A DNA stretch of 64,000 bases from Synechococcus sp. WH 8020 (lineage in GTDB: Bacteria; Cyanobacteriota; Cyanobacteriia; PCC-6307; Cyanobiaceae): positions 1,084,645 through 1,148,644 of the forward strand of contig NZ_CP011941.1 in NCBI RefSeq assembly GCF_001040845.1, given 5' to 3'. Under the pieces are notes generated by a model. That model was not told the DNA's origin. It saw only the letters and a list, made by a program, of their open reading frames with translations, and searched no databases. A program made the position numbers and the translations under genes. Within the stretch, counting starts at the first letter, position 1. Each line of letters begins with the position of its first letter. Of the stretch, positions 32,057-47,501 are shown piece after piece.

Positions 32057-32171
32057 GTGATCAATCATCAAATCTAGATGTCAAGTCAACGACCAGTGTT
32101 AACGATCAAGAGTTGAGGGCCTGAGCAACATCGAGGCCCATTGGCCTAATCATTTCACTTAAGTTCGATCG

Positions 32172-32360: not shown

Positions 32361-32661
32361 GGCTGAGCTTGTCACACAAAAGAGGCTATGACACCGTTGG
32401 GATCTTGAAAAGCATTTGTAACCGAAGCAGGGGAATAAGGCCTAACAAAAGAAAGCCAGTCAACCAAGGGAAAAGGAAAGCTGAATCTGAATCACAAATC
32501 TAAGATCAACAGACTCGTTAAATCAGCAAAAAGCCAGAATTAAATCAACAAGAACATGATCCAGCAGCGATCAGATAGTCGGCGAACCAACGATTAAATA
32601 GTATAATCTAACCACACAAGACGCACACTGCAGGGTTAATATCCCCAGGAGAGAACAGTCA

Positions 32662-32880: not shown

Positions 32881-33020
32881 TGTAATTCACAAAAACAAAA
32901 TCAGGAGTTGAAAACTAAATCAGTTCAATCTGCAAAGGCAGGCAACAATTTATTTAATAACCTAGAGATTTGATAGAAAGCACAAAGAAACTTTCAGTCA
33001 AGTTTTGATAGCTTAAGAAA

Positions 33021-33533
33021 TCAGAGGACAGTGAAATATCTCCATGGAATACCAAAGGTGGCCAATGCATGACCGTTGTCCCCCGTATCTACAGGAAAAA
33101 CTGCTGCAATCGCCAATTCGTCATCCTCAAAACAGGTTCGAGATTTGACAACAAAACTTGCCAAATCATCAGCACCCCACATCAAGGTTCCCGCTTGTTT
33201 TTCTTCTTGATAGTCATCAAACACAACTGAAAACTCTTTTCCATTCTGGCCATTTAGCATTTGATCGATAGCGGCATCAGAACCACGGTCAGGATATAGA
33301 TCAAATAACTGACGCATCAAAGGGTGATCAATCTTGGTGGAGACACGCAAAACATTACCCAAACTTCCAACAGATGATTGAGTTAACACAGGTGGCTCTT
33401 GTCGAGCATCAATGACAGCTACTGGAAGGTTGAAGTCCCAGACCAGGCGCTTTTTCACGTCAGCAGCAATCACCGCCAGAGGATCAGCCAACTCCTCCAC
33501 CAATCGTTTCACTCGGTCTTCTGAAATGGTCAT
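33021..33533 (-). CDS. Hypothetical soluble protein
   Basis: This 170-aa protein is acidic and has no signal or membrane segment. It contains VKKRLVWDFNLPVAVIDARQEPP and AGTLMWGADDLASFVV but no motif I recognise. ATG 33533 is the only good start. Neighbouring regions hold no operon partner. Confidence 0.6.
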   Translation of the reverse strand: MTISEDRVKRLVEELADPLAVIAADVKKRLVWDFNLPVAVIDARQEPPVLTQSSVGSLGNVLRVSTKIDHPLMRQLFDLYPDRGSDAAIDQMLNGQNGKEFSVVFDDYQEEKQAGTLMWGADDLASFVVKSRTCFEDDELAIAAVFPVDTGDNGHALATFGIPWRYFTVL

Positions 33534-33898
33534 GGGTACAAATTAACAGTTAGAAACGACAACTGAGCAAAGCAACGAGGCTCAGATCGCTCAACGGCAA
33601 CAAAGGAACATATACAAAAAATATAAGCGATCAATTTACAACAGAAAAGAGGCCTCAAAATCAATGCACCTCGCTCAGAACAATTAGGTATCCAGTACGA
33701 ATCAATCAATCAAGAGAGAACGGTCACCCGAGCCATCAATACTTTCTAAACAGCTCAGAATCAGGAAATCATATCGGCAATCCCAAAAGGGGAGCATGCC
33801 TTAACCACAAAATCAAAACACAAGCATTTGTCGATAAAATCAACTTAGAAAGAACAAGTCGATTGACAATCAGATGCCATCCCTAATAATTTTAAAAA
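33534..33898. other. Intergenic region, nothing recognised
   Basis: About 365 AT-rich bases without a convincing frame, repeat or hairpin with a T-run. It separates the hypothetical gene from a tiny membrane-protein gene, both on the minus strand. Confidence 0.4.
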
Positions 33899-34015
33899 TC
33901 AAACAAGTGAATCTGCATACATCCACATCGCAGTCATCACGCCTACAGCAATGGTGATCATCAGCACGCTCATGCTTATGGTATTGAAACGAATACGCCT
34001 TTGAATTTCAGCCAT
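33899..34015 (-). CDS. 38-aa single-pass membrane protein
   Basis: An ATG frame of 38 codons gives AEIQRRIRFNTISM followed by a hydrophobic helix (SVLMITIAVGVMTAMWMY). An AGGG sequence lies 11 bases before ATG. The amphipathic basic head and single helix are common among tiny picocyanobacterial membrane proteins. No family name is known to me. Confidence 0.65.
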   Translation of the reverse strand: MAEIQRRIRFNTISMSVLMITIAVGVMTAMWMYADSLV

Positions 34016-34181
34016 AACTTTTACCCTGAAAGCTCACATGACAATACGACGAATAAAAGTCTGTGACGAGTTCTTATTATTCCTTCGTGAAAGAGATATC
34101 TCGGTGGATCATCTACGGCATAAAATCCAGTGAGACCAAAGGATCTCAAGAATTGCAAGCAAAGCCGTGTCCGCCGAACAG

Positions 34182-34301
34182 ATGAGGGAGAACGTGCGTG
34201 CATTGAGCAGTAATCAGCAAAAGAAACGGTTCCAGGAAGGAACGCACCATCAATGGATCGCATTCAATGCCAACCAGCCATGGCCACTAGTATGGATTTA
34301 A
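34182..34301 (+). CDS. Small hypothetical protein
   Basis: The frame (39 aa from ATG 34182, or 44 aa from GTG 34167) encodes MRENVRALSSNQQKKRFQ and ends in PWPLVWI. It is not the reverse complement of any better gene; a minus-strand frame there lacks typical protein features. The start is uncertain, and so is reality. Confidence 0.4.
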   Translation: MRENVRALSSNQQKKRFQEGTHHQWIAFNANQPWPLVWI

Positions 34302-34335
34302 CCGTGTGTAGAATTTGCCGAGCACAGATAACGGA

Positions 34336-34707
34336 ATGCAGGCACTCATCCGTAAAAAGCAGGCTTTTTTAATTACGCTGCTAACGGGAATAACACTATT
34401 GAATCCTGCATCTGCAGACAACAAAAAAAGTCAAGATTGGATTCAGATTGGACTGTCAGAAGAGTTCGAAGAGATCTCTATCAAAAACATCAGAAAATTG
34501 GGCAACAAAGAGTTCTCCTATCAGAACAAAGACAATACAATTATTCTTGTAAAATGCGATGACGAAAAAATCCTAGTACGATATTGGTACTTTACCAAGA
34601 TTGAAAGCACTAACCCTAGAGAATCCACTAGAAAGATGCAGTGGCATAGGGCAGAACCTAAATCACAAACAGAAATAGAGAGCGAGTTCGTATGTGATTA
34701 CGGCTAA
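34336..34707 (+). CDS. Exported hypothetical protein
   Basis: From ATG 34336, 123 aa with a signal peptide (AFLITLLTGITLLNPASA). The mature part has paired Cys (LVKCDDE and EFVCDYG) and the RKMQWHRAEPKS segment. Its design is like the adhesin E-like protein at 9051-9449, which has similar length, strand pattern and Cys spacing, though sequence identity is low. Confidence 0.6.
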   Translation: MQALIRKKQAFLITLLTGITLLNPASADNKKSQDWIQIGLSEEFEEISIKNIRKLGNKEFSYQNKDNTIILVKCDDEKILVRYWYFTKIESTNPRESTRKMQWHRAEPKSQTEIESEFVCDYG

Positions 34708-34818
34708 AGCGCAAGAGATTAACTCCATAGGCTTGTTTCACTCATCAAAAATCGAACAAAGCGAATCAAATGATGCCTCCAACAGGAGGAAGAGGAGCTG
34801 AAACCCACAGTTGACGTT

Positions 34819-34853
34819 AAAAAAAATCCTCTACTCCTTGAAGAGCAGAGGAT
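34819..34853 (-). terminator. Rho-independent terminator of the first cytochrome c6 gene
   Basis: An 11-bp stem with one mismatch (ATCCTCT arm at 34826-34836, AGAGGAT arm ending at 34853) is followed on the minus strand by eight T (complement of 34819-34826). It lies 46 bases beyond the cytochrome stop codon. Confidence 0.88.
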
Positions 34854-34898
34854 AGAAAAAAACAACGATAGGCTTTTAAGAAAAAACCAGACCTGCTA

Positions 34899-35240
34899 TC
34901 AAGACCAGCCTTTCACCGATTGAGATTCAACATAAGCGGCAACATCACTGATATCGTCGCTTCCAAGTTTGGAGCCAAAGGCGGGCATACCGTTTTTACC
35001 GTTGGTGACTTGGTAAACGATGGCCGACTCATGACCATCGTTGTAATCAGTCAAGTAGGCCTTCAGGTCATCCTGCTTCAAAGTGCGCTGGCCATTCACC
35101 ACATTCCCTCCACCCATATGGCATGCAGCGCAATTGGCAGAAAACACCTGCTCTCCATGGGCAACATCTGCAGCAAAGGCAAAGGAAGGCATCATGAACC
35201 CAATGAGGGCAACCAAAGCGACTGAAATGATGTGACGCAT
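34899..35240 (-). CDS. petJ: Cytochrome c6
   Basis: This 113-aa protein has a signal peptide ([17 protein letters not shown]), a heme site CAACH near residue 37 and a distal Met in [12 protein letters not shown]. Cytochrome c6 carries electrons from cytochrome b6f to photosystem I in the thylakoid lumen. Its gene is followed by a strong terminator. A second, divergent copy is at 43037-43378, so this copy is the likelier photosynthetic carrier. Confidence 0.95.
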
Positions 35241-35375
35241 GACTCAAATTAATGACACATAATTCTCCCTCAAATGAGACCATTCCATGCACGCTGAGAT
35301 AGAGCTTTATTTTTGTTTTGTAAAGTCAGAGCCAAAATCGAACAAACTAACTGTTGATCCTTGATCGACTAAGCC

Positions 35376-35864
35376 ATGTTTCGAACTGTGCACTCCGCAC
35401 TTTTCGCCTTCGCACTGGTGGCCTGCTTCGTTTTTGTTCCGTCCACAGCGATCGCTTGCGTTGAAGGCTTGGCTTGGGGGATGCCCCAATCAGAGATCAA
35501 CGACCACCTCGATGGGGCGGCCATCAGACAGGAAGACCTCAACCATCAACGTTTGATCGCACGCAACGTCCATCTCGATCAATTACCTGTTCCTCAGCTC
35601 ACATTGGATATGAACGATCAGGGAGGACTTGAATCACTGGCCTACGAATTCAGCATGGATGACATGACAGAAGTTCTTGCTGGTTTAAGGGCTCGGCACG
35701 GCAAGCCCATCAGCACATCGATTCAAGAAGCTGACTATGAGGATCAGCTCTGGGTTTGGAACACAGGTGAAGACCTGATCACAGCCGTGAAGCGAACGAG
35801 CGGGACTGTCCAAAAATTTCTGATTGGCTACCGACCAAGCCGACTCAAACCTGAAATGCTTTAA
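35376..35864 (+). CDS. Exported hypothetical protein
   Basis: The 162-aa product has a signal peptide (LFAFALVACFVFVPSTAIA) ending just before a Cys-Val. The mature protein begins CVEGLAWGMPQSEINDHL, which resembles repeated GMs-type sensor proteins, and later has VWNTGEDLITAVKRTSG. No family recognised. It is divergent from the cytochrome gene. Confidence 0.65.
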   Translation: MFRTVHSALFAFALVACFVFVPSTAIACVEGLAWGMPQSEINDHLDGAAIRQEDLNHQRLIARNVHLDQLPVPQLTLDMNDQGGLESLAYEFSMDDMTEVLAGLRARHGKPISTSIQEADYEDQLWVWNTGEDLITAVKRTSGTVQKFLIGYRPSRLKPEML

Positions 35865-36034
35865 ATCCCAATCGATTTCGCAGCATCAAGAACATTAGCC
35901 AGCATTGTGGTCGTTGCTTAAACCCCTTGAAAAGAGATAGTTGCTTGCAAAGCCCAAACGAAAAAGTCTGAATCAGCCTCTCATCCCCTTCAAAGGTTGC
36001 TATCAATTCAAAGAAGATGCGGTGCCATCAGCTG

Positions 36035-36229
36035 ATGAGCGATTTTTTTCACTTTCTGGAAAGCTGGAGATGGCCTATAGCAATCGTCCTTTCCATGTAT
36101 TTTGTGAGTCGTGCCCTCATCATGGTTGCAAGAATGGGGATCCGAGTTGAAATCTTCACGCGTCTACCCATTCTTGTAGGAACTGGAAGAGAACCCATCA
36201 AAGCAGAAGTGGGAAAAGTGCGGATCTAA
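36035..36229 (+). CDS. Small single-pass membrane protein
   Basis: The 64-aa product from ATG 36035 holds a transmembrane helix (WPIAIVLSMYFVSRALIMVA) and a cytoplasmic or lumenal tail ending in VGKVRI. A longer frame to ATG 36017 adds six residues. Another overlapping frame at 35941-36150 is less protein-like. Function unknown. Confidence 0.5.
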   Translation: MSDFFHFLESWRWPIAIVLSMYFVSRALIMVARMGIRVEIFTRLPILVGTGREPIKAEVGKVRI

Positions 36230-36256
36230 GAGACACACACTTAAGACATCTTCGTT

Positions 36257-36541
36257 TCAGAGTCTCTCGATCTCTCGATTGATCTCCGCTTCACTAAACG
36301 AGTGACGATGGGGATGAGTGATTTTCCAGCCTTGAATCAAGAGTGCGATCCCCCAGCCGAAGAGAGGGTAGATCGGCCAGAAAAATCCAAATCCAGTTAA
36401 AGACCACACCACAATCAAAAGACCATTGACCCAGAGGTAATTGATCACCTGATGGCGATAGGCCCTCTTGCGGCTGAGACGGCTAATAGCTAGATGACGA
36501 GAGTCATGATCGTAATCAAACGTATCTGAAGATCTAGTCAT
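36257..36541 (-). CDS. 2TM-domain protein
   Basis: From ATG 36541, 94 aa with two hydrophobic helices (VINYLWVNGLLIVVWSL and IYPLFGWGIALLIQGW) separated by a short turn and preceded by a KRAYRHQ patch. This resembles the 2TM domain. It lies 16 bases after the outer-membrane protein gene, in the same direction. Role unknown. Confidence 0.7.
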   Translation of the reverse strand: MTRSSDTFDYDHDSRHLAISRLSRKRAYRHQVINYLWVNGLLIVVWSLTGFGFFWPIYPLFGWGIALLIQGWKITHPHRHSFSEAEINREIERL

Positions 36542-36557
36542 TGCAGAGGAATTAAAA

Positions 36558-37496
36558 TTAGAAGCTAAAGCTAACACCCGTACCAATATGATGCTGCCAA
36601 CCTATTCCCCAACCACCTGCTTTGCGCTCATCGGTGCTGTAGATAGGCTCCCAATGAGCAAATAAGACGACTTGGTCATTAATCGGATATTCAAGAGCAA
36701 TTTCTCCACCCCAGTCAGTTCGTTGCGATAGACCTGAATAGTCTCCTGGAGTGTAAAAACGTGGTCCTCCCGTGAGAGTCACATTTAACAAATCAATGTT
36801 GAAGCCAAAACCAAGCCATGTATCAGTGTAATTACCTAAATAGGTTCCGTCACTTTCCCATCCACTACGATTTTCAGCTGAAATAAAGATGCCATCTGCA
36901 ATTGATTCCAGCCCGTCACCCAGTGCAAAATTTAGATCACCATCTCCAAATGCATAAGCTAGTTTGGCGCCAACTTCATGCTTCAGCCCCTTAGTATCTT
37001 CAGCGATACTGGAAGTGACGTAGTAAGGCTTCCAATCAATTGATATAGAGAAACGATCATTGGGCTGATATCTGGCTGCTAAATAAGCTTTTGCATCAAC
37101 CCTTCGAAAGGGTGCACCTGATTCTTCCTCTTCTTCCTCTTCACCTTCTTCCTCAATTTCAACCCTTCCATAAAAGTGCTCCGCTTCCCCGTAAACAGCA
37201 GCAGGTCCGATCAGTGCTTCAATCGCAAAAGCACCATCGTTCTCGAGCCCCCACTCAAAAACACCTCCAAACTGAAGATCAATAGCGTAATGCCTGGGTT
37301 CACCTTCTAGGTTGTCTTCTAGTCCTGCATGACCTTCGATGGTCAGGACGGGCGAAGCTTTAAATTCTCCAGCTTCTAATGATTCACCACCTGCAGCGCC
37401 ATGAGCTCTTACGGCTGTAAAAGATGAAGTAGAAACGACAAGAAATGCAGCCGAAGCACCAATGCGAACGAGTGGTCGAATGAATGATGAAAACAT
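36558..37496 (-). CDS. Outer-membrane beta-barrel protein with acidic loop, in zinc locus
   Basis: This 312-aa protein has a signal peptide, alternating amphipathic strands and a C-terminal aromatic F (GTGVSFSF), as expected for an outer-membrane barrel. Residues 113-125 are almost all Glu, a likely extracellular metal-binding loop. There are also His near residues 32, 56, 69 and 107. It lies 39 bases downstream of znuA and probably shares its Zur-controlled transcript. A role as a zinc porin or sensor is inference. Confidence 0.7.
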   Translation of the reverse strand: MFSSFIRPLVRIGASAAFLVVSTSSFTAVRAHGAAGGESLEAGEFKASPVLTIEGHAGLEDNLEGEPRHYAIDLQFGGVFEWGLENDGAFAIEALIGPAAVYGEAEHFYGRVEIEEEGEEEEEEESGAPFRRVDAKAYLAARYQPNDRFSISIDWKPYYVTSSIAEDTKGLKHEVGAKLAYAFGDGDLNFALGDGLESIADGIFISAENRSGWESDGTYLGNYTDTWLGFGFNIDLLNVTLTGGPRFYTPGDYSGLSQRTDWGGEIALEYPINDQVVLFAHWEPIYSTDERKAGGWGIGWQHHIGTGVSFSF

Positions 37497-37535
37497 GAAA
37501 TTGATGAGATAAGGATGCAATAGAATGAACGCTAA

Positions 37536-38432
37536 TTATCTAATAGAGGACCATTGCTTTTGCAATCTGCTAGCAGCGGCTTCATTACAACTACCACCTT
37601 GAGCCACTACAAAAATACAAACATTGCTCGTAGCTGTTTGCACCAAACTTTTCCCTGGGGCTTGACCATCAGCAAAAAGAGATTGCTTTGCTATTGGAAC
37701 CCCGCTGCTACGACTAATCCGTCGCATCGTTTTAGAGGGAGGAAGTGACTCAGGGAAAATGGCCTTGCTTCCAGATGCTTTGATCGACTTGCTAATCGCT
37801 GACAAGCTGGAGGGTCGCAACGTCCCACCCGTGGTGTAGTCATCCAGAACGGGAAGCTCACGAACGCCGTAACGGTTAGCCAAGAAAGAAAAAGCTCGAT
37901 GACCGGTCACAAGGACGCGCTGCTGTTCTGGAACAGTTGCGACCTGTTGACCAATCCATCCCCCAAGAGAGGCAAGAACGCGATCGGCCTTCGCGCGACG
38001 CTGATCAATCTGAGTCTCACCATTGACATCAAACAGCGGTTTCAAACTCGATGCCACGGTATTAGCCATGGCAATCACATTGGCTGGATCATGCCAAATA
38101 TGGGGATCTTTTAAAGAGTTGTTGGGGACAGCAATATTTCCAACTTTGACAACATTCCCAGGGGTTCTGATTTTATTTAACGCCGGCGTGAGGTTGTACC
38201 CGTTCAAAAGCACAATTTTAGCTTTCGCAAGATTTTGACGATCAGCTGGACGCAACGCCAAGGTGTGGGGATCTGACCCTGGTTTGATCAAACAGATCAC
38301 TTTTGCTTGGTCCCCCACCAAGGTGCGCGTGAGATCGCAAAGGATCCCATCGGCGGCCACCACGGTTGGAGTCGCCACATTGGAAGCCGCAAGCAGGAGA
38401 CTTGCCAACGGTAAGGACGCGGGCAGGGGCAC
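37536..38432 (-). CDS. znuA: Zinc ABC transporter substrate-binding protein
   Basis: This 298-aa cluster A-I (ZnuA/TroA) protein has the expected zinc ligands: His56 (DPHT), His114 in HIWHDP, His178 in TGHRAFSFL and Asp255 in LFADG. The third-ligand His is typical of zinc binders, whereas manganese binders have Glu there. The usual His-rich loop between ligands one and two is absent. The gene is preceded by a Fur/Zur-like palindrome at 38457-38471. It is downstream of znuCB, but the box suggests an extra promoter. Confidence 0.9.
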   Translation of the reverse strand: MPLPASLPLASLLLAASNVATPTVVAADGILCDLTRTLVGDQAKVICLIKPGSDPHTLALRPADRQNLAKAKIVLLNGYNLTPALNKIRTPGNVVKVGNIAVPNNSLKDPHIWHDPANVIAMANTVASSLKPLFDVNGETQIDQRRAKADRVLASLGGWIGQQVATVPEQQRVLVTGHRAFSFLANRYGVRELPVLDDYTTGGTLRPSSLSAISKSIKASGSKAIFPESLPPSKTMRRISRSSGVPIAKQSLFADGQAPGKSLVQTATSNVCIFVVAQGGSCNEAAASRLQKQWSSIR

Positions 38433-38456
38433 TTAAGAAGGATGAATTCATCGGAA

Positions 38457-38471
38457 CGATAATCATTCTCA
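38457..38471 (-). promoter_or_regulatory. Zur-box-like palindrome upstream of znuA
   Basis: On the minus strand the 15 bases TGAGAATGATTATCG agree at 13 positions with the Fur-family zinc box form TGATAATnATTATCA. It lies 25 bases before the znuA start. A Zur repressor itself is not encoded in this window unless the Fur-type protein at 22135 serves that role. Confidence 0.7.
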
Positions 38472-38480
38472 AATATTTGT

Positions 38481-39263
38481 CTAGGTCTTTCTCCAGGCCA
38501 ATGGGCAAAGCAAGACAACGCACGCCACGCCGATTAACGGTCCTGGCGGGAGATTAAGAGGCAAGGCCAAAAGGAAACCTCCGCCACTCAGGGCCAAACC
38601 CACCACAGCTGCCTGGACCATCGCCGCTCGAAGACTTCTCACCCGACGAAGCCCTGGAAGAACGGGAGCACACAGCAAACCAATCACCAAAATCACTCCC
38701 ACTGCTGCCATTGCACTAACAATCACCACAGCCGTTACCGCAGATAGGGCAAGCCGTAGACCTCGCACTGGTAATCCCGCCGCCGCCGCACCCTCTGGAT
38801 CAACGCCCAAATAGACAAGCTGCCGATAGCGAGTACCAAGAAGCAAAGCCACAGCAAGGCAAGCAAACATCACCCGACCCACGTCGAGCCAACCCACCGT
38901 GAGCAAGTCACCAAACAGCAAGGCCTCGAGGTCCAGGCGCAAACTCAGCAAGGGGATGAGCAAGACTCCGAGCCCAAGAAAACCAGCGAGCACGGTATTG
39001 ATGACAGCTTCCTCATTCAGCTTCGAGCTTCGCTGCAATCGTTCCGCCAATAGAGAACCAAGAATGCCGCTGATCACGCCCCCCACTGCTGGGTCAAAAC
39101 CAAAGGCCACCGATAATGCCAATCCTGGAAGCACGGCATGGGAAATGAGGTTGGCCTGAAGAACGCGGCGCTGGGTGACTAAGAGAGTCCCTGTGACAGG
39201 ACACAAAATCCCCACCAAAAGTGCCATCAACAGAGGCAACAACCAAAAAACGATCTCATCCAC
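38481..39263 (-). CDS. znuB: Zinc ABC transporter permease
   Basis: This 260-aa ABC-3 family permease has about eight hydrophobic helices. Family marks include VTQRRVLQANLISHAVLPGLALS near the N-terminus and NTVLAGFLGLGVLL. It forms the channel for the zinc importer with ZnuC and ZnuA. It overlaps znuC by eight bases. Downstream, 48 bases separate it from znuA. Confidence 0.92.
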   Translation of the reverse strand: MDEIVFWLLPLLMALLVGILCPVTGTLLVTQRRVLQANLISHAVLPGLALSVAFGFDPAVGGVISGILGSLLAERLQRSSKLNEEAVINTVLAGFLGLGVLLIPLLSLRLDLEALLFGDLLTVGWLDVGRVMFACLAVALLLGTRYRQLVYLGVDPEGAAAAGLPVRGLRLALSAVTAVVIVSAMAAVGVILVIGLLCAPVLPGLRRVRSLRAAMVQAAVVGLALSGGGFLLALPLNLPPGPLIGVACVVLLCPLAWRKT

Positions 39264-40008
39264 AGTGATGATTTCCCGGATTGACCAAACCTTTGAGAGC
39301 GCGTCTCACCTCAGCAGGAGGGCCATCCGCAAGAACCCGCCGATCAACCACGATGACGCGGTCGTAGGAATCAAGCGCCTCCCCCCAGTCATGACTGCTC
39401 ACCAGCAAGGTATGCCCGGTATCAGCCAACTGCCGCATCAGCAGTAAAAGCTGATCCCTGGAAGGAGGATCGATCGCCGCACAGGGTTCATCGAGAAGAA
39501 GCATGCGAGAGGGTTGAACAAGCGAACGGGCCAGCAATGCACGTTGCTGTTGTCCACCCGAAAGAGCATCAAGGCGTCTGTTCGCAAGATCAGCAATCCC
39601 AACACGTTGCAATGCTGCCTCCCGATCGCAACATCCAAAAGAGCGGCTATTCATCAAGCCAAGATCAACAAGATCACGCACGCTGATGGGGAACGACCAA
39701 TCAATCCGACTGCGCTGAGGCATCAACACCACCCGTTCACGACATGTCTCGATCGGATCCCCATCGCAGTAAACCGAGCCACTTGAAGGATGCAGTTGCC
39801 CCTGAAGTACATGCAGAAGTGTGGATTTACCGGCTCCATTCGCACCAACAAGCGCCGTCAATGTGCCTGAATGCAGCTTCAGTGAGACGTTTTCAAGCAC
39901 GACGCGATCGCCGTACTGCACATCGACACCCTCTGCTCTCAGGACTGGCTCTTTCAAGATCGAACCGTCAAGTTGGCTCAACCTATCGACGGACCTGATG
40001 AAATTCAT
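39256..40008 (-). CDS. znuC: Zinc ABC transporter ATP-binding protein
   Basis: The 250-aa ATPase has Walker A GANGAGKST, the signature LSGGQQQR, Walker B MLLLDEP and the switch His (SSHDWGE). It powers the ZnuB channel. The start was set at ATG 40008. A longer frame to 40089 overlaps the upstream gene by 107 bases and has no ABC features. The chosen start still overlaps by 26 bases, showing tight packing. Confidence 0.9.
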   Translation of the reverse strand: MNFIRSVDRLSQLDGSILKEPVLRAEGVDVQYGDRVVLENVSLKLHSGTLTALVGANGAGKSTLLHVLQGQLHPSSGSVYCDGDPIETCRERVVLMPQRSRIDWSFPISVRDLVDLGLMNSRSFGCCDREAALQRVGIADLANRRLDALSGGQQQRALLARSLVQPSRMLLLDEPCAAIDPPSRDQLLLLMRQLADTGHTLLVSSHDWGEALDSYDRVIVVDRRVLADGPPAEVRRALKGLVNPGNHHCG

Positions 40009-41371
40009 CCAAGTCACCACCGGCCGGTAACCATCGTGCCAAGACAACTTGAGGCTTAAGAAGCTCAAACTCCAAACTGCTGCCATCAATTAGGGCAGCT
40101 CGGCGTTTGGCACCATCCCCATCTGTCATCACTGTGAGAAGACGATTCGTGGCGGGATCCACATCAAGTACCGCTCCTGAAGCCAAATACCATCCAGGGA
40201 AATACCTGCGCTTAAGCACTGATCCAGAGCTATTCACAAGCAGTAGTTCATCGCGAAGAGTGGGCGATGCATCACGAAGAACAATCCAAATTTTTTCGCC
40301 CCGGTTATCGCAAGCCGTTGCCATGACCCCCTCCTCCCCCAACCAAACCTGGCGTGGGGGCTGTCCAGGAATCACCAGCTCTATCGATCGTCGATAATCA
40401 GGCCAATTCCTTAACAAAACCGCGCGACCGGAGCCAGAACAAAACGACTTAAGTTCCCGACTTCCAGGAAGGCTTTGTGGAGAATTCCCTGTTTTTTTAG
40501 GGTTCATTGGAAGCAGGTCAAGACCTTCATAGGAAGGAACAACCAAGCCACTGCCATCAGGAAGAAGACGGATCGGGCCTGCAACCTCCAGATCGAGGTC
40601 ACGACGCTTGGCATTAGCCGAACGAATCCAGGTTCGGTCACTACCAACTTCAATACCGCCAACTTGCACAAGTAATTCCCCGCGCTGATTACTACTTAAA
40701 TGGGCAAACAAAAGTGATCCAGACGCCAATGATTGGATGGCACCTGGAAGAGGATCTGCCAAACCTTGCGCTTGATCGCTGATCGCCCGAGGACTGAGTT
40801 GGCGGAGCAACACCTCCAGCTTGGATGGATCGTGATCAGTCACGAAAGCAACGCCCTCTCCATTGCCAAGAGGCTCGATCTGAAGAATCCGCTGCTCGAC
40901 AGACGACAACGGCAACCAACTGCCATCCTCACGACGCAATTTCAACTGCTCTCCGTCCTCCTCGACCATCACCGCCAAGAGATAAGAACGAGGGTCCCAC
41001 CAAATGGAACGGTTTGGCAGTGCAAGGCCCCGTTGATCACGCCCGGCAAGAACAAGCTTCTGGGGCGAACGAATCAGGGCACCAGGATCGAGGAGCAAAC
41101 GAAACTGGTCCTGCTGACCAAACCACTGATGGGGCTGATGAGGCAGAAGGCGACTGTTTTCAGCCACCGACTTACGGTCCATCGCCCGACTAAAGCGCAC
41201 ATCAAGAGCTGCAGCGCCTGAACGAATGGATTGAATCGCGACGGATCGCAAACGCGGGGGACGACGCAACAAAATCTGCTGCTGGATCAAAGCGACAAGA
41301 CCCAAGCCCATCAAAGCGATGCTCAAGAGTCGAACCTTGCCAGTGGATGAGCCAAACCCCGTTGAGCTCAT
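39983..41371 (-). CDS. Unknown membrane-anchored beta-rich protein inside the zinc operon
   Basis: This 462-aa protein begins with a single membrane anchor (LLSIALMGLGLVALIQQQILL). The rest is predicted to be beta-rich with repeated strands, e.g. IWWDPRSYLLAVMVEEDG, GSLLFAHLSS, GLVVPSYEGLDLLP and RLLTVMTDGDG, suggesting a propeller. The start codon overlaps the previous gene's stop by four bases and its 3' end overlaps znuC by 26. Genomic context points to metal homeostasis; no function is known to me. Confidence 0.72.
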   Translation of the reverse strand: MSSTGFGSSTGKVRLLSIALMGLGLVALIQQQILLRRPPRLRSVAIQSIRSGAAALDVRFSRAMDRKSVAENSRLLPHQPHQWFGQQDQFRLLLDPGALIRSPQKLVLAGRDQRGLALPNRSIWWDPRSYLLAVMVEEDGEQLKLRREDGSWLPLSSVEQRILQIEPLGNGEGVAFVTDHDPSKLEVLLRQLSPRAISDQAQGLADPLPGAIQSLASGSLLFAHLSSNQRGELLVQVGGIEVGSDRTWIRSANAKRRDLDLEVAGPIRLLPDGSGLVVPSYEGLDLLPMNPKKTGNSPQSLPGSRELKSFCSGSGRAVLLRNWPDYRRSIELVIPGQPPRQVWLGEEGVMATACDNRGEKIWIVLRDASPTLRDELLLVNSSGSVLKRRYFPGWYLASGAVLDVDPATNRLLTVMTDGDGAKRRAALIDGSSLEFELLKPQVVLARWLPAGGDLDEFHQVRR

Positions 41372-42057
41372 GGTTCCAGAGGCCGCTCAGGTCGGGGGAT
41401 GGCTGTAATTGTGCTGGGCTTCACCACATTGATGAGCAGTCCATCCCTCATCTTTGTCGTCATCGTTCCCTCGATCGCCAGCCATTCATCCGGCTTCGGA
41501 TCCGCGGTTGCAGGCCAGTCAATTGGAAGACCAGCAGGAGTTGCATCAGCCAGACAGCACCGCACCGTGAGGCGGGCGAGCTGGGGTTGACTCCCTCGTC
41601 GTTGAAGCACAAAGCCACTAATCCGCACGGGATCTCCTGCATGCAAATTGGGGTCGGGTTGACTGCGCAACAACCGCACCCATTCCGTCAACGTGCGTTG
41701 TTCTGGCGGAAGGAAAAAACTCAATCGCGGCGCCTCAGGCAAATTTTCACTGCGATTCGCTGCCAAATCACTGAAGGAAGGTGATGGGGGAAACAACAAA
41801 ACCAAACAGGCCACCGCGATCGAAATCAGCCAACTCAGAGGCGCTAACGGAGTTTTCAAGCGTGAAGCAAAGCGCAGCTGAACAGCACCGAGCACCATCA
41901 GAACAAATCCAGCAATCGCAACCACCGGGTGGAACAACGCATTGAGAAGCAGATCCAAACGAGCGGACACAGTGCTCCAGACCAAGACCCATCCCCAAAG
42001 CAACAAAACAAGGGGGGGAAGATATCGCGTTTGTCGAATTCGGTTCAGACGTGCCAT
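41368..42057 (-). CDS. TIGR03943-like (YcgQ-type) membrane protein
   Basis: This 229-aa protein has two N-terminal helices (LPPLVLLLWGWVLVWSTV and VVAIAGFVLMVLGAVQL), a third near residue 80, and a C-terminal soluble beta domain (DPVRISGFVLQ, VRCCLADATPAGLPI, WLAIEGTM). This matches the TIGR03943 family, which is commonly paired with the YraQ/DUF318 permease found just upstream here. In other bacteria such pairs sit in zinc-responsive regions. Start at ATG 42057 is four bases after the permease stop. Confidence 0.82.
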   Translation of the reverse strand: MARLNRIRQTRYLPPLVLLLWGWVLVWSTVSARLDLLLNALFHPVVAIAGFVLMVLGAVQLRFASRLKTPLAPLSWLISIAVACLVLLFPPSPSFSDLAANRSENLPEAPRLSFFLPPEQRTLTEWVRLLRSQPDPNLHAGDPVRISGFVLQRRGSQPQLARLTVRCCLADATPAGLPIDWPATADPKPDEWLAIEGTMTTKMRDGLLINVVKPSTITAIPRPERPLEP

Positions 42058-42061
42058 CGCG

Positions 42062-43021
42062 TTACAACAGCACAAGATTGACCCACTGGCCGATCAATAA
42101 AACGAGCAACGAGGCTGCAACTGCGGTGATGGCAATGGCTCGCGTTGAAAGAAGCACAGTGAACAAGCCAGCAAGCTTGAGGTCGACCACTGGACCGAGA
42201 AGCAGAAAGGCCAACAAGGCTCCAGGCGTGACCTGGGCGGCAAAGCCAAGGGCAAGAAATGCATCAACGCTGGAACAGACCGAAACCACCAGTGCCAGAA
42301 GCATGAGAGCTAGCACCGAAACGGTTGGGCCTGAACCCAAAGCCAACAACCAACTGCGCGGCAACCAAGTTTGAACCGCAGCAGCGAGAGCACAACCCAA
42401 CACCAGCAAGGTGAGCAGGCTCAAAAATTCACGCGTGCTGTGTTGCAGCAGCTCCGCAGGGCGAAGCGGAACCGCTTCCAGCCGAGGTTCAGAATCATTG
42501 ATGTTCACTCCAACCAGCCCACTTCGACGTTCAAGCAGTCCCACACGCGAGAGGGGTTGGCTCAGTCTTCGCTCCTCGAGCAAGGCAGACGCCAACAAGC
42601 TGGATTCAGGCAGCAACCCCAAAAGAGCACTGAGCCCGATGGCAATCAGAAAAGCACCCATGGGTCTCCCCCAAAGCAACCAGGTCTGATCAGGGAAAGC
42701 AGCCCAAGTACTGGCTAAGACAATTGGATTGAGAACTGGCGCTGCGAACAAAAAACCAAAACCGGTGCCCAACGGTGCTCCGCTAGCAAGCAGACGTCTG
42801 GCAACTGGAACGTTCCCACATTCACAGGCGGGCAACGCGAAACCGAGCAAGGCTCCAACCACTGGAGCAAGCAGGGGATGGCGTGGCGAACGCTTGATCC
42901 ATGTTGACTGGGGGACAAGCCATCTCGCCAAACCAGCAATCGAAACGCCCAGAAGTAAGAAAGGAAGCGCTTCGATTAACAGACCTTGAAAAATGGCCCA
43001 GCCAGTGGCGAAACGTGTCAT
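42062..43021 (-). CDS. YraQ/DUF318-family permease
   Basis: The 319-aa membrane protein has about eight helices. The signature Cys-containing loop is LGFALPACECGNVPVARRL, and the second half repeats the topology with LALVVSVCSSVDAFLALGFA. In this family the cysteine loop is conserved, and the substrate is unproven but likely a metal or metal complex. ATG 43021 is preferred over the adjacent TTG at 43024. It follows the cytochrome c6 gene by 15 bases. Confidence 0.85.
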   Translation of the reverse strand: MTRFATGWAIFQGLLIEALPFLLLGVSIAGLARWLVPQSTWIKRSPRHPLLAPVVGALLGFALPACECGNVPVARRLLASGAPLGTGFGFLFAAPVLNPIVLASTWAAFPDQTWLLWGRPMGAFLIAIGLSALLGLLPESSLLASALLEERRLSQPLSRVGLLERRSGLVGVNINDSEPRLEAVPLRPAELLQHSTREFLSLLTLLVLGCALAAAVQTWLPRSWLLALGSGPTVSVLALMLLALVVSVCSSVDAFLALGFAAQVTPGALLAFLLLGPVVDLKLAGLFTVLLSTRAIAITAVAASLLVLLIGQWVNLVLL

Positions 43022-43036
43022 CAACGCTTGGAGCAG

Positions 43037-43378
43037 CTAACTCCAGCCATGGCTGGCTTGATCTTCCACGTAGGCCGCAACATCCGCAATTTCATTTTCA
43101 CTCAGCACATCCAAGAATGCAGGCATTGCATTACGCCCATAGGTCACTTGAGCCACAATTCCAGTCTCATGACCGGTGATGTAGTTGGGGAGAAAGGCCT
43201 CAAGGTCGTCCTGCCGCAAAGTCCTCTCACTCTTCACAATATTTCCACCGCCGGCATGGCATGCGGCGCAATTGGTAGTGAAAATCTGACCACCCCTCAC
43301 CGTGTCAGACGCCATTGCACGCAGGGGCATGCTCAAGACCAGCACCAAAGCAAAAGCAACGGAGAGCAAAAAACGCAT
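43037..43378 (-). CDS. Second cytochrome c6, head of the zinc gene run
   Basis: This 113-aa protein is a paralogue of the cytochrome at 34899-35240, with signal peptide (AFALVLVLSMPLRAMA), heme site CAACH and distal Met in GRNAMPAF. The sequence differs in charge (LRQDDLEAFLPNYITGHETG). It is only 15 bases upstream of the YraQ-type permease, so it may be co-transcribed with the zinc uptake genes. A partial Fur-box half (TGAGAATG) lies 23 bases before it. Confidence 0.9.
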   Translation of the reverse strand: MRFLLSVAFALVLVLSMPLRAMASDTVRGGQIFTTNCAACHAGGGNIVKSERTLRQDDLEAFLPNYITGHETGIVAQVTYGRNAMPAFLDVLSENEIADVAAYVEDQASHGWS

Positions 43379-43470
43379 GGTGCCTCATATCAATTGTCAC
43401 CATTCTCAGGAGATCTGAAGCACCGGTGGTGACGTTGCTGCAGATCGTTATGGAATGACTCTGAGAGTGG

Positions 43471-44103
43471 TTAAGCCACCAGTGCAGCCCAAGCGAAAGC
43501 TCCGCCAACACCGATCCAAATCCCTGCAGCAACACGCTTGCCCTGGTCGCCAAGAGCATTCAACAATCGCTTCGAGCCAAGGCTGACAGCTAGAAGCAAG
43601 GCGCCTTGGGCAATCAAAAGGCCTAAGAAGTAAGTGAGGAGAGGCGTGGATTCAGCTCCAACAATCGCCCCACCTAGCAGATACCCATGCAATCCAATCA
43701 CCGGCAGTAAAAGTCCTGCAGGAATGAAATTGAGAGCGATCAAACCCTCAACCAGCAAACTCAGTGAGACGAGCGCCTCACCAGCAGGCTCAAGACTGGT
43801 GGGAAGGGGAAAGAGTTGCATCAAGACCGCGCCTCCAAGGGCGAATGCCAAAAGGGGAAGAATCCAAGCCATTGGGCGCCTAAGTCCGATAAATCCAATT
43901 GCCAGCAGAAAGAGGAGATGGTCAGGGCCGAGCAGGGGGTGGCCAATTCCACTGAGCAATCCCTGCAGCGCATTGATTTCACCTCCTTCCGGCATCGCGA
44001 AGGGGTGGTGGGCAACAGCGGGCCCAGCCGTCGCGAGTAACAACCCAGCTACAGCAAAAACTCCGAGACCGCGAAAGAGTCTGATGATTCGTTTGGACGT
44101 CAA
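43471..44103 (-). CDS. HupE/UreJ-family cobalt/nickel permease, B12-riboswitch controlled
   Basis: This 210-aa protein has a cleavable signal (FAVAGLLLATAGPAVA) then HHPFAMPEGG and the family signature GHPLLGPDH with metal-binding His and Asp, followed by about six helices. HupE proteins import nickel or cobalt. A full cobalamin riboswitch is directly upstream, so cobalt for B12 is the likely substrate. The start is TTG 44103, with GAGGA nine bases before. Nickel for NiFe-SOD or urease is an alternative. Confidence 0.85.
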   Translation of the reverse strand: MTSKRIIRLFRGLGVFAVAGLLLATAGPAVAHHPFAMPEGGEINALQGLLSGIGHPLLGPDHLLFLLAIGFIGLRRPMAWILPLLAFALGGAVLMQLFPLPTSLEPAGEALVSLSLLVEGLIALNFIPAGLLLPVIGLHGYLLGGAIVGAESTPLLTYFLGLLIAQGALLLAVSLGSKRLLNALGDQGKRVAAGIWIGVGGAFAWAALVA

Positions 44104-44130
44104 TGGTCGATCCTCGTCGATTGAACAAAA

Positions 44131-44250
44131 ATCGGCGGGCGTTCTGACTTCTGCTGAAGAGTTTTCAGCAGTTCACAGCTGCGGGACAGCGACGGAATTT
44201 CACCGTTCTTTCCCCGTTACCTCTAGTGACTGAATCCCACTAGAACCGAT
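44131..44250 (-). ncRNA. Cobalamin riboswitch
   Basis: The minus strand reads the conserved core GGTGAAATTCC, then CTGTCCCGCAGCTGTGA, then AAGTCAGAACGCCCGCC, in the right order. P1 closes by ATCGG (44246-44250) with CCGAT (44131-44135). The HupE start follows 27 bases later, near GAGGA, fitting translational control. Class and ligand preference are not resolved. Confidence 0.92.
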
Positions 44251-44274
44251 GAACTGGTTTACGTCAGTTCCAAT

Positions 44275-44559
44275 TCAGTGTCCTGCACTGGAACCGTGGT
44301 TATGAGTGTTGCAAGGCATCCATTTGGCCCCCATCTGATGGGCCCCCTTGCAGTTGAACAAAGTTGCGGCCTCCTCGGCTTCCGCCTTCGTGTCATACAT
44401 CGCTTTGATGGGCTCAGTACCAGGTTTCGCTGGGGAGGGATCCTTCCCCATCGAAAGCAACGTTCTGCTGTGGTCAGAACCGATCTCGTGATGAGCAATT
44501 GCCGGAGTCGTCAAAGCCAGCAAGCTCAAGAGCAGTCCAGCGGATGGGGTGAGACGCAT
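44275..44559 (-). CDS. DUF3721-domain exported small protein
   Basis: The 94-aa product has a signal peptide (LLLSLLALTTPAIA) and a DUF3721 core, MYDTKAEAEEAATLFNC then GAHQMGAKWMPC. His and Cys residues (HHEIGSDH, MPCNTHNHG) could bind metal. It is preceded by a 16-bp palindrome resembling the znuA box. The start was set at ATG 44559. Its function is unknown. Confidence 0.8.
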   Translation of the reverse strand: MRLTPSAGLLLSLLALTTPAIAHHEIGSDHSRTLLSMGKDPSPAKPGTEPIKAMYDTKAEAEEAATLFNCKGAHQMGAKWMPCNTHNHGSSAGH

Positions 44560-44652
44560 CTCAGGTTTGATTGCAACTCTCTGATTTTGATGCATCAGGC
44601 GCCGCTGGACAGGTTCCGCTAAACGCTGGGCTTCGTACGGTGCTGAATGTGA

Positions 44653-44668
44653 TTGAGAATGATCTCAA
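44653..44668 (-). promoter_or_regulatory. Fur/Zur-like palindrome upstream of the DUF3721 gene
   Basis: TTGAGA and TCTCAA form a perfect 6+6 inverted repeat around ATGA. Its first 11 bases (TTGAGAATGAT) are identical to the minus-strand znuA box region. It lies 94 bases before the DUF3721 start and 31 bases past the mntB stop. Confidence 0.6.
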
Positions 44669-44698
44669 CGCTTCCATCCCACAGCTCACAAGCGGATC

Positions 44699-45565
44699 TT
44701 ATGGATTGGGCAATCTTGAGATTGGCATCGACGATGCAAATCGATGGCGCAAAATCCCATGCTTAGGAGCAAAGAGGAACGCCATCACAAATAAACCTGT
44801 CTGTACAAGAACGATGCAACCAGCTGGGGAGCTATCAGTCCAATAACTTGTGTACACACCAAGAAGACTGGAAAGAATGCTGCTGCCAATCGCCAACCAA
44901 CTCATTCGATCAAAGCGATCTGTTAGTAGATAAGCAGTAGCCCCAGGAGTGACCAGCATGGCAACCACCAAAATGATGCCTACTGTTTGTAAACCAGCAA
45001 CCGCAGCAAGAGAGAGCACGGAGAGCAGCAGGTAATGGAGAACACCGGTGTTGATTCCAATCGAACGTGCATGCGTCGGGTCAAAACAAAACAACAACAG
45101 ATCACGACGCAATAACAAAAGAACAGCCGTTACAAGACCTGAAATGAGTAGCGTTTGTTGAATATCAGCAATAGAAATACCAAGCACATTGCCAAAAAGA
45201 ATATGAGTAAGATCAATATTGCTCCGCGTCTTCGAGACCAGCACCAGTCCTAAAGCGAAGAAACCAGTAAAAACAAGGCCTATCACCGTATCTTCCTTGA
45301 TTCGGGATTTCTGCTTGACGAAGCCAATCATGGCAACTGATCCCACACCGAAGACAAAGGCCCCAACCGAAAAAGGCAGTCCTATGGCATAGGCCAGGAT
45401 GACCCCTGGCAACACTGAATGAGAAACCGCATCACCCATCAGCGCCCAGCCTTTGAGGGTCATGTAGCAAGAAAGGAGACCACAAACACCACCAACGGTC
45501 GCACTGATCAACAGAGCCCGCACCATGAAGGCGTGATGAAGTGGCTCGAGCAAAAATGTATTCAA
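44699..45565 (-). CDS. mntB: Manganese ABC transporter permease
   Basis: The 288-aa ABC-3 permease has eight to nine helices, with CYMTLKGWALMGDAVSHSVLPGVILAYA near the N-terminus and LVSKTRSNIDLTHILFGNVLGIS typical of MntB/TroC-type proteins. It overlaps the ATPase gene by four bases. It is assigned to manganese because the cognate binding protein has a Glu ligand. Confidence 0.88.
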   Translation of the reverse strand: MNTFLLEPLHHAFMVRALLISATVGGVCGLLSCYMTLKGWALMGDAVSHSVLPGVILAYAIGLPFSVGAFVFGVGSVAMIGFVKQKSRIKEDTVIGLVFTGFFALGLVLVSKTRSNIDLTHILFGNVLGISIADIQQTLLISGLVTAVLLLLRRDLLLFCFDPTHARSIGINTGVLHYLLLSVLSLAAVAGLQTVGIILVVAMLVTPGATAYLLTDRFDRMSWLAIGSSILSSLLGVYTSYWTDSSPAGCIVLVQTGLFVMAFLFAPKHGILRHRFASSMPISRLPNP

Positions 45566-46332
45566 ACGTCCTCCGAGGAACTATTTCCGGTCAACAAATC
45601 CGGAGGGAGGCCCCCAAAGGCCAAAGAAAGATTTTCTGGAGTAAACACCTCTGACGTTTCACCGTAAGCCAAGACCGTTTTATTGATTAGAACTGTTAGA
45701 TCGCAAAAGTCTCTGACATGACTGAGATCATGCGTTGAAATCAAAATGGTGCGTCCTTCCTTACGCAACTGGAAAAAGAGCTCTGCCATCAACTTCTCGG
45801 TACGAACGTCCACGCCATTGAAGGGTTCGTCCAACAACAACACCGATGCGCGCTGTGCAATGGCTCTTGCCAAAAAGGTCCGTTTACGTTGGCCACCGGA
45901 GAGAGCAGCGATCGGACGATCCCTTAGATCAAGAAGCTCAACGCGCTCAAGGGCATGTCGAACCGCAACCCTGTCTGACTGCCGTGGGATCCGCAGCACA
46001 TTCATGGCTCCATAGCGGCCCATCATCACCACATCCCAAACAGAGATCGGAAAATCGCAATCGATCCCTTCGTTCTGGGGGACGTAGGCAACAGCTTGAT
46101 CTCGCTGAGCCCTAGACACACTGCGTCCGTTGATTTTGATGTGTCCACGCGAGGGACGAATAAAGCCAGTGAGGGCCTTGAAAAGGGTCGATTTACCAGA
46201 CCCATTCATCCCTACCAATCCACAGATACATCCCGAAGGCAGATGAAGAGAAGCGTCGTAGAGAGCAACTGTGCCGTTGTAGTCAACACAGATCTGATCT
46301 GCCTCGATCCGCATCAATTCACTCTGGGTCAT
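45562..46332 (-). CDS. mntA: Manganese ABC transporter ATP-binding protein
   Basis: This 256-aa ATPase carries Walker A GMNGSGKST, signature LSGGQRKRT, Walker B VLLLDEP and switch His in STHDLSH. It overlaps mntC by four bases and mntB by four bases, so the operon order is mntC-mntA-mntB. Its domain composition is normal. Confidence 0.9.
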   Translation of the reverse strand: MTQSELMRIEADQICVDYNGTVALYDASLHLPSGCICGLVGMNGSGKSTLFKALTGFIRPSRGHIKINGRSVSRAQRDQAVAYVPQNEGIDCDFPISVWDVVMMGRYGAMNVLRIPRQSDRVAVRHALERVELLDLRDRPIAALSGGQRKRTFLARAIAQRASVLLLDEPFNGVDVRTEKLMAELFFQLRKEGRTILISTHDLSHVRDFCDLTVLINKTVLAYGETSEVFTPENLSLAFGGLPPDLLTGNSSSEDV

Positions 46333-47300
46333 GAGGACTTTTCGGCGGAAGCAGCCAACCCCTGCCTAAGAAGTTTCACATTGTGGCGTTGAAGGTCGAG
46401 CAGAGTTGGCGCAGGACCGTTGCGTTTTGATAGAGAGTCCACATAGAAGCTGCCACCAAAGCGAGCGCCTGAAGCACGAGCCACCTCTCGTTGGGCTTTA
46501 TCACTCACGGTGGTTTCACAAAACACCGCAGGAACTTGATCTCTCTTCACACGCTCGATCAACCTAGCCATTCGTCTCGGAGTGATCTGGCTTTCAGCAT
46601 TAACAGGCCACAAATAAGCCTCCTCAAATCCATAATCTTGAGCTAAATAAGAAAATGCACCTTCACAGCTGACCAAAACCCGCTGTTTTTTGGGAATAGC
46701 AGCGAGGAGGTTTCGTAACTCGGTATCCAAGTTTTCCAATTGGAGCTTGTAGCGTTTGCCATTGTCTCGATAGATCTGGGATCCCTCTGGATCAAGATCA
46801 GAAAAGGCATCGACGAGTTGATCAACATATCCCTGAGCCCGTAAAGGTGACATCCAGGCATGGGGATTGGGCTTACCGGCATAGACATCACCCTCAATGA
46901 GCAATGGCTGCATCCCCTGGGTGAGAGTGACAGTGGGCACATCTCCAGCTGATTGAACAAAGCGACGGGCCCAAAGTTCTAATCCCAACCCATTTTCAAC
47001 GATTAAATCTGCTCCTGATGCTTGTTCTAAGTCCTTAGGAGAAGGCTCATAACCATGAATTTCTGCACCCGGTTTGGTAATCGATTTCACCTGCAAACGA
47101 TCACCAGCCACCTGACGAGCCATATCAGCAAGGATCGTAAATGTTGTCAAAACGACTGGACGATCATCAGAAGCGGTGCTGGTTTTATCAGTTAAATCAC
47201 CTTGTTTTGAGCATGCAACAACTAAAGGCAAGGCGACGGCAAGAGTTGTCACCTGCCGCAGAAGACGTGATCTCAATGTCTTTGACAGAAAGTTGTTCAT
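46329..47300 (-). CDS. mntC: Manganese-binding lipoprotein of the ABC importer
   Basis: This 323-aa cluster A-I protein has a lipobox with Cys30 (LVVACS), then ligands His82 (EIHGYEP), His147 (NPHAWMSP), Glu213 (SCEGAFSYL) and Asp288 (YVDSLS). The Glu in place of the third His is the manganese signature known from Synechocystis MntC. The neighbouring znuA has His there, so the two importers differ in metal. ATG 47300 is preferred over TTG 47309. No Fur-type box is seen upstream. Confidence 0.92.
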   Translation of the reverse strand: MNNFLSKTLRSRLLRQVTTLAVALPLVVACSKQGDLTDKTSTASDDRPVVLTTFTILADMARQVAGDRLQVKSITKPGAEIHGYEPSPKDLEQASGADLIVENGLGLELWARRFVQSAGDVPTVTLTQGMQPLLIEGDVYAGKPNPHAWMSPLRAQGYVDQLVDAFSDLDPEGSQIYRDNGKRYKLQLENLDTELRNLLAAIPKKQRVLVSCEGAFSYLAQDYGFEEAYLWPVNAESQITPRRMARLIERVKRDQVPAVFCETTVSDKAQREVARASGARFGGSFYVDSLSKRNGPAPTLLDLQRHNVKLLRQGLAASAEKSS

Positions 47301-47342
47301 AGTCTTCAAAAGTATTAAATCAGCAAGTCGAAGAACATTGAT

Positions 47343-47501
47343 TTATGAAGATGATTTTGCTCCACCAGACCCTCGTCGGCGTCTACAGCGCTCTGAGCAG
47401 TAACGAACCTCCCCCCAAACGTCCTTCCATTTGCGACGCCATTGGAAAGGGCGACCACAAACAACGCATATTTTTGTGGGGCGATCCAGTGGTGGCACCA
47501 T
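47343..47501 (-). CDS. DUF2256 small zinc-ribbon protein
   Basis: A 52-aa frame encodes [16 protein letters not shown] then [12 protein letters not shown], the typical DUF2256 pattern with four Cys in two CxxC-like pairs. Cyanobacterial members are near photolyase or cryptochrome genes. The start is ATG 47501; the stop TAA at 47343-47345. A plus-strand frame covering the same bases is a shadow. The gene begins the minus-strand group upstream of mntC. Confidence 0.85.

Follow-up and report, generated by a model that had tools for sequence, protein, structure and literature searches.

Synechococcus sp. WH 8020 carries genes for manganese, zinc and cobalt uptake on one strand within about eleven kilobases, together with a gene for a cytochrome c6. 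Do these genes form a single response to metal scarcity, or is the locus devoted to one metal, with the other genes as its neighbours? The window, i.e. the whole 64,000-nucleotide stretch of the 2.66-Mb single-contig genome that was analyzed, holds the locus on its minus strand from 47309 to 36257, and coordinates given below refer to the window unless stated otherwise, those of the locus to this strand. In the direction of transcription the genes are mntC-A-B, a DUF3721 gene, a cobalamin riboswitch followed by the gene of a HupE permease, cytochrome c6, yraQ, TIGR03943, the gene of a membrane-anchored protein, znuC, znuB, znuA, the gene of an outer-membrane barrel and that of a 2TM protein. 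This order, as well as the coupled overlaps of mntC/mntA, mntA/mntB, yraQ/TIGR03943, TIGR03943/anchored protein and znuC/znuB, agrees with a preliminary description made from the sequence alone. We propose, with a probability of roughly 0.55, that this is a zinc-acquisition locus which, in one genus, is set beside independent manganese (mntCAB) and cobalt (B12-riboswitch hupE) genes, and which serves the route set out below. That the zinc locus includes two under-described parts, a His-loop barrel and a three-gene set comprising yraQ, TIGR03943 and the anchored-protein gene (here called the triad), is well supported by sequence comparison; the biochemical roles proposed for them are putative.

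Gene order around the triad

The comparison was centered on yraQ. In 23 other genomes of the genus about 10 kb on each side of yraQ were fetched, and the genes of the locus were placed by tblastn. Loci from the rest of the family were added from 40 of about 100 non-genus yraQ matches, and further loci, among them L076 of WH7803, were found via the anchored protein (best 80 of 122). Removal of 17 duplicates from 143 candidates left 126 picocyanobacterial loci, 27 from the genus, excluding the window, and 99 from outside. At least 6 kb of flanking DNA on both sides was present in 25 genus loci and 49 outside loci, referred to here as full-flank loci.

The triad was found in all 23 genus loci first fetched. 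In 16 of these loci it is immediately followed by znuC and znuB, in 16 a c6 gene stands upstream of yraQ, and 20 have mntB no more than about 6 kb upstream. The hupE gene is found between the DUF3721 gene and c6 in seven loci and on the opposite strand past the barrel gene or znuA in six; the fetched DNA of the remaining ten showed no hupE. Among the 25 full-flank genus loci, 22 have znu genes, 22 an mntB ortholog within 6 kb, 22 a DUF3721 gene, 14 hupE and 17 a c6 gene within 1 kb. By our own estimate, a single-copy gene of a 2.7-Mb genome has a chance below 1% of falling in a stretch of this size. The order mntCAB-DUF3721-(hupE)-c6-yraQ-triad-znu, kept in much of the genus, speaks for the proposal of the preliminary description that manganese, zinc and cobalt uptake and an electron carrier respond jointly to metal scarcity.

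Outside the genus this linkage is mostly lost. In the 49 full-flank loci only three mntB orthologs, five DUF3721 genes, no hupE and no c6 gene within 1 kb were found, against 33 loci with zur, 24 with a znu ortholog, 16 with cobW and 39 with any metal ATP-binding cassette (ABC) gene. A zur, znu or cobW gene lies within 6 kb of the triad in 43 of these 49 loci. When short flanks were included (all 99 loci), the numbers were 67 for zur, 39 for znu, 35 for cobW, six for mntB orthologs, one for hupE (L053) and zero for c6 within 1 kb. In 33 of the 99 loci zur is located no more than 170 bp from the triad, and 16 of these also have cobW within 1.2 kb (e.g. L048). These separate counts indicate that the link of the triad to zinc is much broader than that to manganese or cobalt.

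Thus, mntCAB, hupE and cytochrome c6 are neighbours of the triad within the genus and seldom outside it. Among relatives the parts of the island mostly occur separately, an outcome that the preliminary description had itself named as contrary to its proposal, and co-regulation of the whole island was rejected because the linkage disappears outside the genus. Moreover, hupE has its own riboswitch, and the island contains a single Zur-type site matching at least 10 of 12 positions. The idea of a coordinated response stands for zinc, by virtue of the box at znuA-barrel and the linkage of the triad to zur, znu and cobW; as one joint response across three metals and an electron carrier it is not supported, and we consider it very unlikely. 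Two triad loci of picocyanobacterial type come from records titled as metagenome-assembled genomes of Bifidobacterium breve (L106) and Prochlorococcus marinus MIT 9215 (L079), which we suspect to be mislabelled bins.

A Zur-type box and a variable barrel beside znuA

The window encodes a complete ZnuABC set, with a cluster A-I binding protein (znuA, 37536-38432; PF01297), an ATPase (znuC, 39256-39981; PF00005) and an ABC-3 permease (znuB, 38481-39263; PF00950). The putative start of znuC is a TTG at 39981 which, if used, places it 1 base past the stop of the anchored-protein gene. ZnuA has His at three ligand positions (DPHTL, DPHIWHD, TGHRAF), which we take as the mark of a zinc-type protein.

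A Zur-like box had been noticed at znuA, and scoring bore this out. The sequence CGATAATCATTCTCA (38457-38471) matches 11 of the 12 fixed positions of TGANAATNATTNTCA, the consensus against which all Zur-type sites were scored. It is the sole site of at least 10/12 in 13.2 kb, where shuffled sequences average 0.73 such sites. By chance, a match of at least 11/12 is expected in a 240-bp upstream stretch with a probability of 0.0004, and one of at least 10/12 in such a stretch of the window with a probability of 0.0052. A Zur homologue is encoded in the genome (64% identity, G000:C1:2036751-2037110). The box is kept in the scanned genus loci with the exception of L012, where znuABC and the barrel gene were not found beside the triad, and L028, for which no znuA match was scanned. 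An additional 9-11/12 site is present at the znuC start in L013-L022; in L023-L025 znuA and yraQ diverge, with a site of 10-11/12 in the gap between them. In an automatic scan, 63 of 68 znuA-barrel pairs carried a box of at least 10/12. The five pairs below this value were L030, L079, L222, L239 and L243; the L030 box was overlooked owing to the match start and scored 12/12 on a separate scan. Taken together, the sites suggest that znuA and the barrel gene are under Zur control in this strain. The second palindrome of the preliminary description, at the DUF3721 gene (44654-44668), fits the consensus at no more than 9/12 positions and was rejected as a Zur box, since an alignment of six relatives shows no conservation.

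The barrel gene (36558-37520, likely start ATG at 37496) follows znuA. For 68 of 74 distinct barrel proteins (window included) the gene immediately upstream, in the same orientation and no more than 400 bp away, is znuA, and none has znuA downstream; the six barrels without such a znuA are L081, L085, L091 (truncated), L049, L224 and L240. The barrel occurs in 60 of 180 family genomes, representing 14 of 34 genera, and phylum-wide in 9 of 244 genomes, all of this family. A barrel topology is predicted: the C-terminal residue, Phe in the window, is Phe in 71 of 75 listed sequences (the window's being listed twice), as is usual for barrels. The only Pfam family matched at E 0.1 or better is PF24653, a cyanophage outer-membrane-like barrel. 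Of 35 aligned members of the barrel family 26 match it, with a best E of 1.9e-8; the window protein reaches 25.1 bits, below the cut-off of 27. In L240 (genome G004) the barrel gene stands alone, and two overlapping 10/12 Zur-type sites are found just upstream of its start (chance 0.002), an arrangement that speaks for control of the barrel itself by Zur. The barrel of L224 is likewise alone, with a best site of 8/12. In genome G004 a 552-residue protein encoded on the opposite strand (L021, 15024-16682), porin-like by eye, occupies the usual place of the barrel after znuA.

The TonB-receptor plug domain PF07715 was found in none of 24 genus genomes, source genome included. Nor was it found in 57 of 61 family genomes; the four genomes having it (G027, G039, G059, G080) are not among the barrel matches. 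Because no such plug was found in the 24 genus genomes, the barrel is the best candidate for outer-membrane zinc capture. It resembles ZnuD-type receptors and transporters of Anabaena in being an outer-membrane protein made together with a zinc ABC system. ZnuD carries a His-rich loop. Unlike ZnuD-type receptors, the window barrel has about 300 residues and no PF07715 plug. Zur-regulated TonB-dependent transporters of Anabaena are named in the passages available from PMC10957091.

The preliminary description had emphasized an acidic loop in the barrel (37110-37160; residues 121-137). This loop is real and consists of poly-Glu in the window, and it is an exception in its family, where most loops are rich in His and Asp. 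The 71 complete loops aligned to it span 15-166 residues (median 54) and contain 28.9% His and 44.5% Asp plus Glu, compared to 3.2% and 13.6% in the rest of the protein, and no Cys. At least 10 His were counted in 43 of the 71 loops; His-free loops were seen in the window, L007, L009, L011 and L240. Since long loops of barrels generally face outward, the loop is probably extracellular, and its composition suggests zinc binding. In the barrel tree the five His-free barrels form one group (100/100), in which L240 has a long branch. A clade of the window, L007, L009 and L011 is rejected by the flanking genes (log-likelihood 254.6 lower; approximately unbiased (AU) test, p 2.5e-5). By this conflict, alleles have been exchanged between close relatives, and the poly-Glu loop of the window is, on this phylogenetic evidence, a swapped allele. 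Allele exchange and the PF24653 matches also speak for a rival reading, in which the loop varies because the barrel is a surface target of phages or grazers, with metal binding being secondary. We find this rather improbable, as the loop composition is narrowly confined to His, Asp and Glu without Cys, the linkage to znuA is tight, and no barrel relative was found in phage records, PHROGs or viral contigs. Likewise, no relative of the propeller described below was found in viral contigs, and a phage origin of barrel or propeller was rejected on these grounds.

A three-gene set around a YraQ-type permease

The triad is complete in 120 of the 126 picocyanobacterial loci (27/27 in the genus, 93/99 outside). 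Of the six incomplete ones, three are cut at a sequence edge (L112, L135, L136) and three lack the third gene (L055, L056, L057), the contig of L056 stopping 228 bases past TIGR03943. The earlier assignment of a YraQ-type permease and its TIGR03943 partner was correct. YraQ (42062-43024; PF03773, 4e-54) scores 184.2 bits to ArsP_1 at a cut-off of 32.3, and the adjacent TIGR03943 gene (41368-42075) encodes a protein of 169.3 bits at a cut-off of 88.8. In YraQ, C67-E68-C69, C250 and D254 are invariant (49 sequences), and C173-C174 of TIGR03943 occur in at least 97% of 73 rows.

The third protein (39983-41371; 462 residues, no Pfam family) has invariant C311 and C354 (64 sequences). Its AlphaFold2 model, built on 64 sequences, has a mean pLDDT (predicted local distance difference test) of 92.6 and predicts a transmembrane helix (10-36), an Ig-like part (about 40-125) and a beta-propeller (126-452); the Ig-like assignment is our own reading of the strands and the FSRPM motif. 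Foldseek and VIA-align comparisons showed that it resembles many propellers. AztD, the zinc chaperone of the AztABCD importer, was among them (Z 19.5) and was not singled out; we did not adopt a kinship with AztD, since the match concerns the fold alone and is tied with peptidase, dehydrogenase and other propellers. Both are beta-propellers beside a cluster A-I zinc ABC system, as far as the passages of PMC7463823 describe AztD, and the triad protein differs by its membrane anchor, its Ig-like domain and a pair of invariant Cys.

TIGR03943 was found in 102 of 244 cyanobacterial genomes. Among 40 contexts outside the family, from 39 genomes and chosen among TIGR03943 matches, 27 gave a YraQ profile match and 25 a propeller profile match, and a blastp family from 25 loci lies a median of 0.72 kb past the point where the TIGR03943 match begins. 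By these matches the triad looks old in cyanobacteria, whereas its zinc neighbourhood was observed in picocyanobacteria only. TIGR03943 also matches in Bacillus subtilis and Synechococcus elongatus, which served as controls. Both window proteins thus score as members of the known YraQ (PF03773)/TIGR03943 permease pair. Unlike the plain pair, many cyanobacteria add the third, Ig/propeller gene, and the picocyanobacterial set is tied to zur, znu and cobW. The passages available on the Zur regulon of PCC 7002 (PMC4628125) name no triad genes, and those from PMC2770081 and PMC12058595 do not mention the genes of this locus. By hand count, no good znuB match was obtained (E above 1e-30) in 43 of 180 family genomes, of which 37 have YraQ and six have neither. 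A role of the triad as a plain ZnuBC substitute was not shown, as many znuB-lacking loci have another metal ABC system beside the triad. Among the open-licence PMC papers listed, none dealt with the triad, DUF3721 or a His-loop barrel in this locus, which is weak evidence of absence.

The proposed zinc route and its neighbours

Published data on strain WH8102 bear on this locus. According to the passages available from PMC9337993, synw0968-0973 are up in a zur mutant and synw0970-0973 also at low zinc, with strand-specific RNA-seq libraries for which the paper gives no counting option; synw0968, synw0972 and synw0973 are described there as uncharacterized. In L030 and other g3 genomes the order is a small open reading frame (ORF), znuB, znuC / znuA, barrel, and then a convergent propeller gene. 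By this gene order synw0972 should be the barrel and synw0973 the propeller, an assignment that is not certain because in L032 barrel and propeller are separated by an additional ORF. A 77-residue membrane-like ORF was observed after znuB in L030 (16132-16365) and is probably the counterpart of synw0968. The window shares with the Zur-znuABC locus of WH8102 a znuA with a Zur box, znuBC and neighbours of no described role, which in WH8102 are induced in the zur mutant. It differs in that znuCB has no box of its own and comes after the triad, in the same orientation. In the passages of PMC9337993 the WH8102 neighbours are not described as barrel or propeller.

The route we propose would start with zinc scarcity, when zinc-free Zur releases znuA-barrel. 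The barrel would then capture or admit zinc at the cell surface without TonB, its loop in most strains acting as a His/Asp-rich chelating antenna; ZnuA would pick up zinc in the periplasm and ZnuBC import it. YraQ-TIGR03943 and the anchored propeller may make up another membrane complex that handles zinc, most likely for import or hand-over from periplasm to cytoplasm via the conserved Cys motifs, although its direction is conjectural. Extended to picocyanobacteria without TonB-dependent receptors, the model would have zinc enter via a Zur-controlled, TonB-independent barrel, whose His/Asp antenna of changeable length is exchanged between strains; in the window and some relatives the loop is instead His-free and made of poly-Glu. 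The zinc would then pass to ZnuABC and to a permease of three cyanobacterial proteins, so far undescribed, made up of YraQ, TIGR03943 and the Ig/propeller protein. We hold this wider model tentatively, at somewhat less than even odds.

Several observations weigh against the zinc reading. The compared loci are related by descent, and their counts are not independent trials. Six of the 49 full-flank loci outside the genus lack zur, znu and cobW altogether, and the 40 cyanobacterial contexts outside the family gave only one zur and no ZnuA or ZnuB matches, with queries from picocyanobacteria that may miss distant forms. In the 13.2 kb scanned, no Zur-type site of at least 10/12 lies upstream of c6-yraQ in the window. 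The extra ORF of L032 weakens the synw0972/0973 assignment, which rests on the gene order of related genomes, WH8102 being outside the sets compared. If the assignment is right, the WH8102 passages do not list the orthologues of TIGR03943 and yraQ as Zur-responsive, an argument against the whole triad being under Zur control in that strain. The AlphaFold2 model of YraQ is weaker (79.5) and matched no solved fold at E 0.001 or better, and the loop of the window has no His. Finally, SO_0444, a relative of YraQ in the ArsP_1 superfamily, is needed for growth under zinc or copper stress and is proposed to be an efflux protein in the passages of PMC3219624.

This last point raises the alternative that the triad serves the export or detoxification of zinc or some other thiophilic metal, its place in the zinc locus then reflecting homeostasis and not uptake. 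Zur of WH8102 also activates bmtA, which sequesters excess zinc (passages of PMC9337993), so that a Zur box is no proof of induction in scarcity. The window YraQ, however, reaches only 74.5 bits to the model of the SO_0444 Cu/Zn efflux family (NF033936; cut-off 300) and is thus not a member, its context differs from that of SO_0444, and the triad runs nearly gapless into znuCB in the window and close relatives. We regard export as unlikely, though it deserves to be kept in mind, and prefer the uptake route described above.

The manganese genes open the locus. The mntC-type substrate-binding protein (46329-47309; PF01297) has Glu at the third ligand position (SCEGAF), presumably indicating a manganese-type protein, and is followed by the mntA-type ATPase (45562-46332) and the mntB-type permease (44699-45565; PF00950). 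The exported DUF3721 protein (44275-44595; PF12518) contains the motif CKGAHQMGAKWMPCNTH. Outside the genus, a DUF3721 protein with its Cys/His motif is also encoded just upstream of yraQ in L039, L064, L097, L104 and L108, sometimes with two matches. The riboswitch (44117-44265; Rfam RF00174) lies directly upstream of hupE, as the preliminary description had it (54.4 bits, gathering score 31.5), and is present in the window and five relatives; the sixth scanned, L104, gave no hupE match. In the passages of PMC4284471 a B12 riboswitch at hupE is already noted for marine cyanobacteria and the HupE/UreJ permease (43471-44103) is linked to putative cobalt uptake. A non-coding block upstream of c6 (43389-43420) is strongly conserved in the window and four aligned hupE-bearing relatives and is altered in L012.

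The cytochrome c6 paralogue (43037-43378) ends 12 bp upstream of yraQ, and a second c6 gene was observed 8 kb away at 34899-35240. Four c6 matches are present genome-wide, among them those at G000:C1:1224114 and 1235292. In each window copy the QVT motif ahead of the heme-ligand Met retains its Gln, which we take to set both copies apart from low-potential c6A. The 2TM-domain protein (36257-36586; PF13239) closes the locus. A third cluster A-I metal ABC system is located outside the island (L002, G000:C1:888730-892581). The guanine-plus-cytosine content is about 41-48% in the flanks of the island (31000-37000, 54000-63000) compared to 50-59% across most of the rest; the flanks are possibly variable regions.

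The available passages of PMC9337993 describe the way in which Synechococcus deals with ultra-low zinc as unknown, and no TonB-dependent plug was found in the 24 genus genomes, which leaves the outer-membrane step of zinc uptake open. The barrel and the triad provide named, deletable genes with which to address this question, and barrel and propeller offer identities for the uncharacterized Zur-responsive neighbours of znuABC reported there. The series of loop lengths and the His-free alleles constitute natural variants with which the loop chemistry may be tested against zinc supply.

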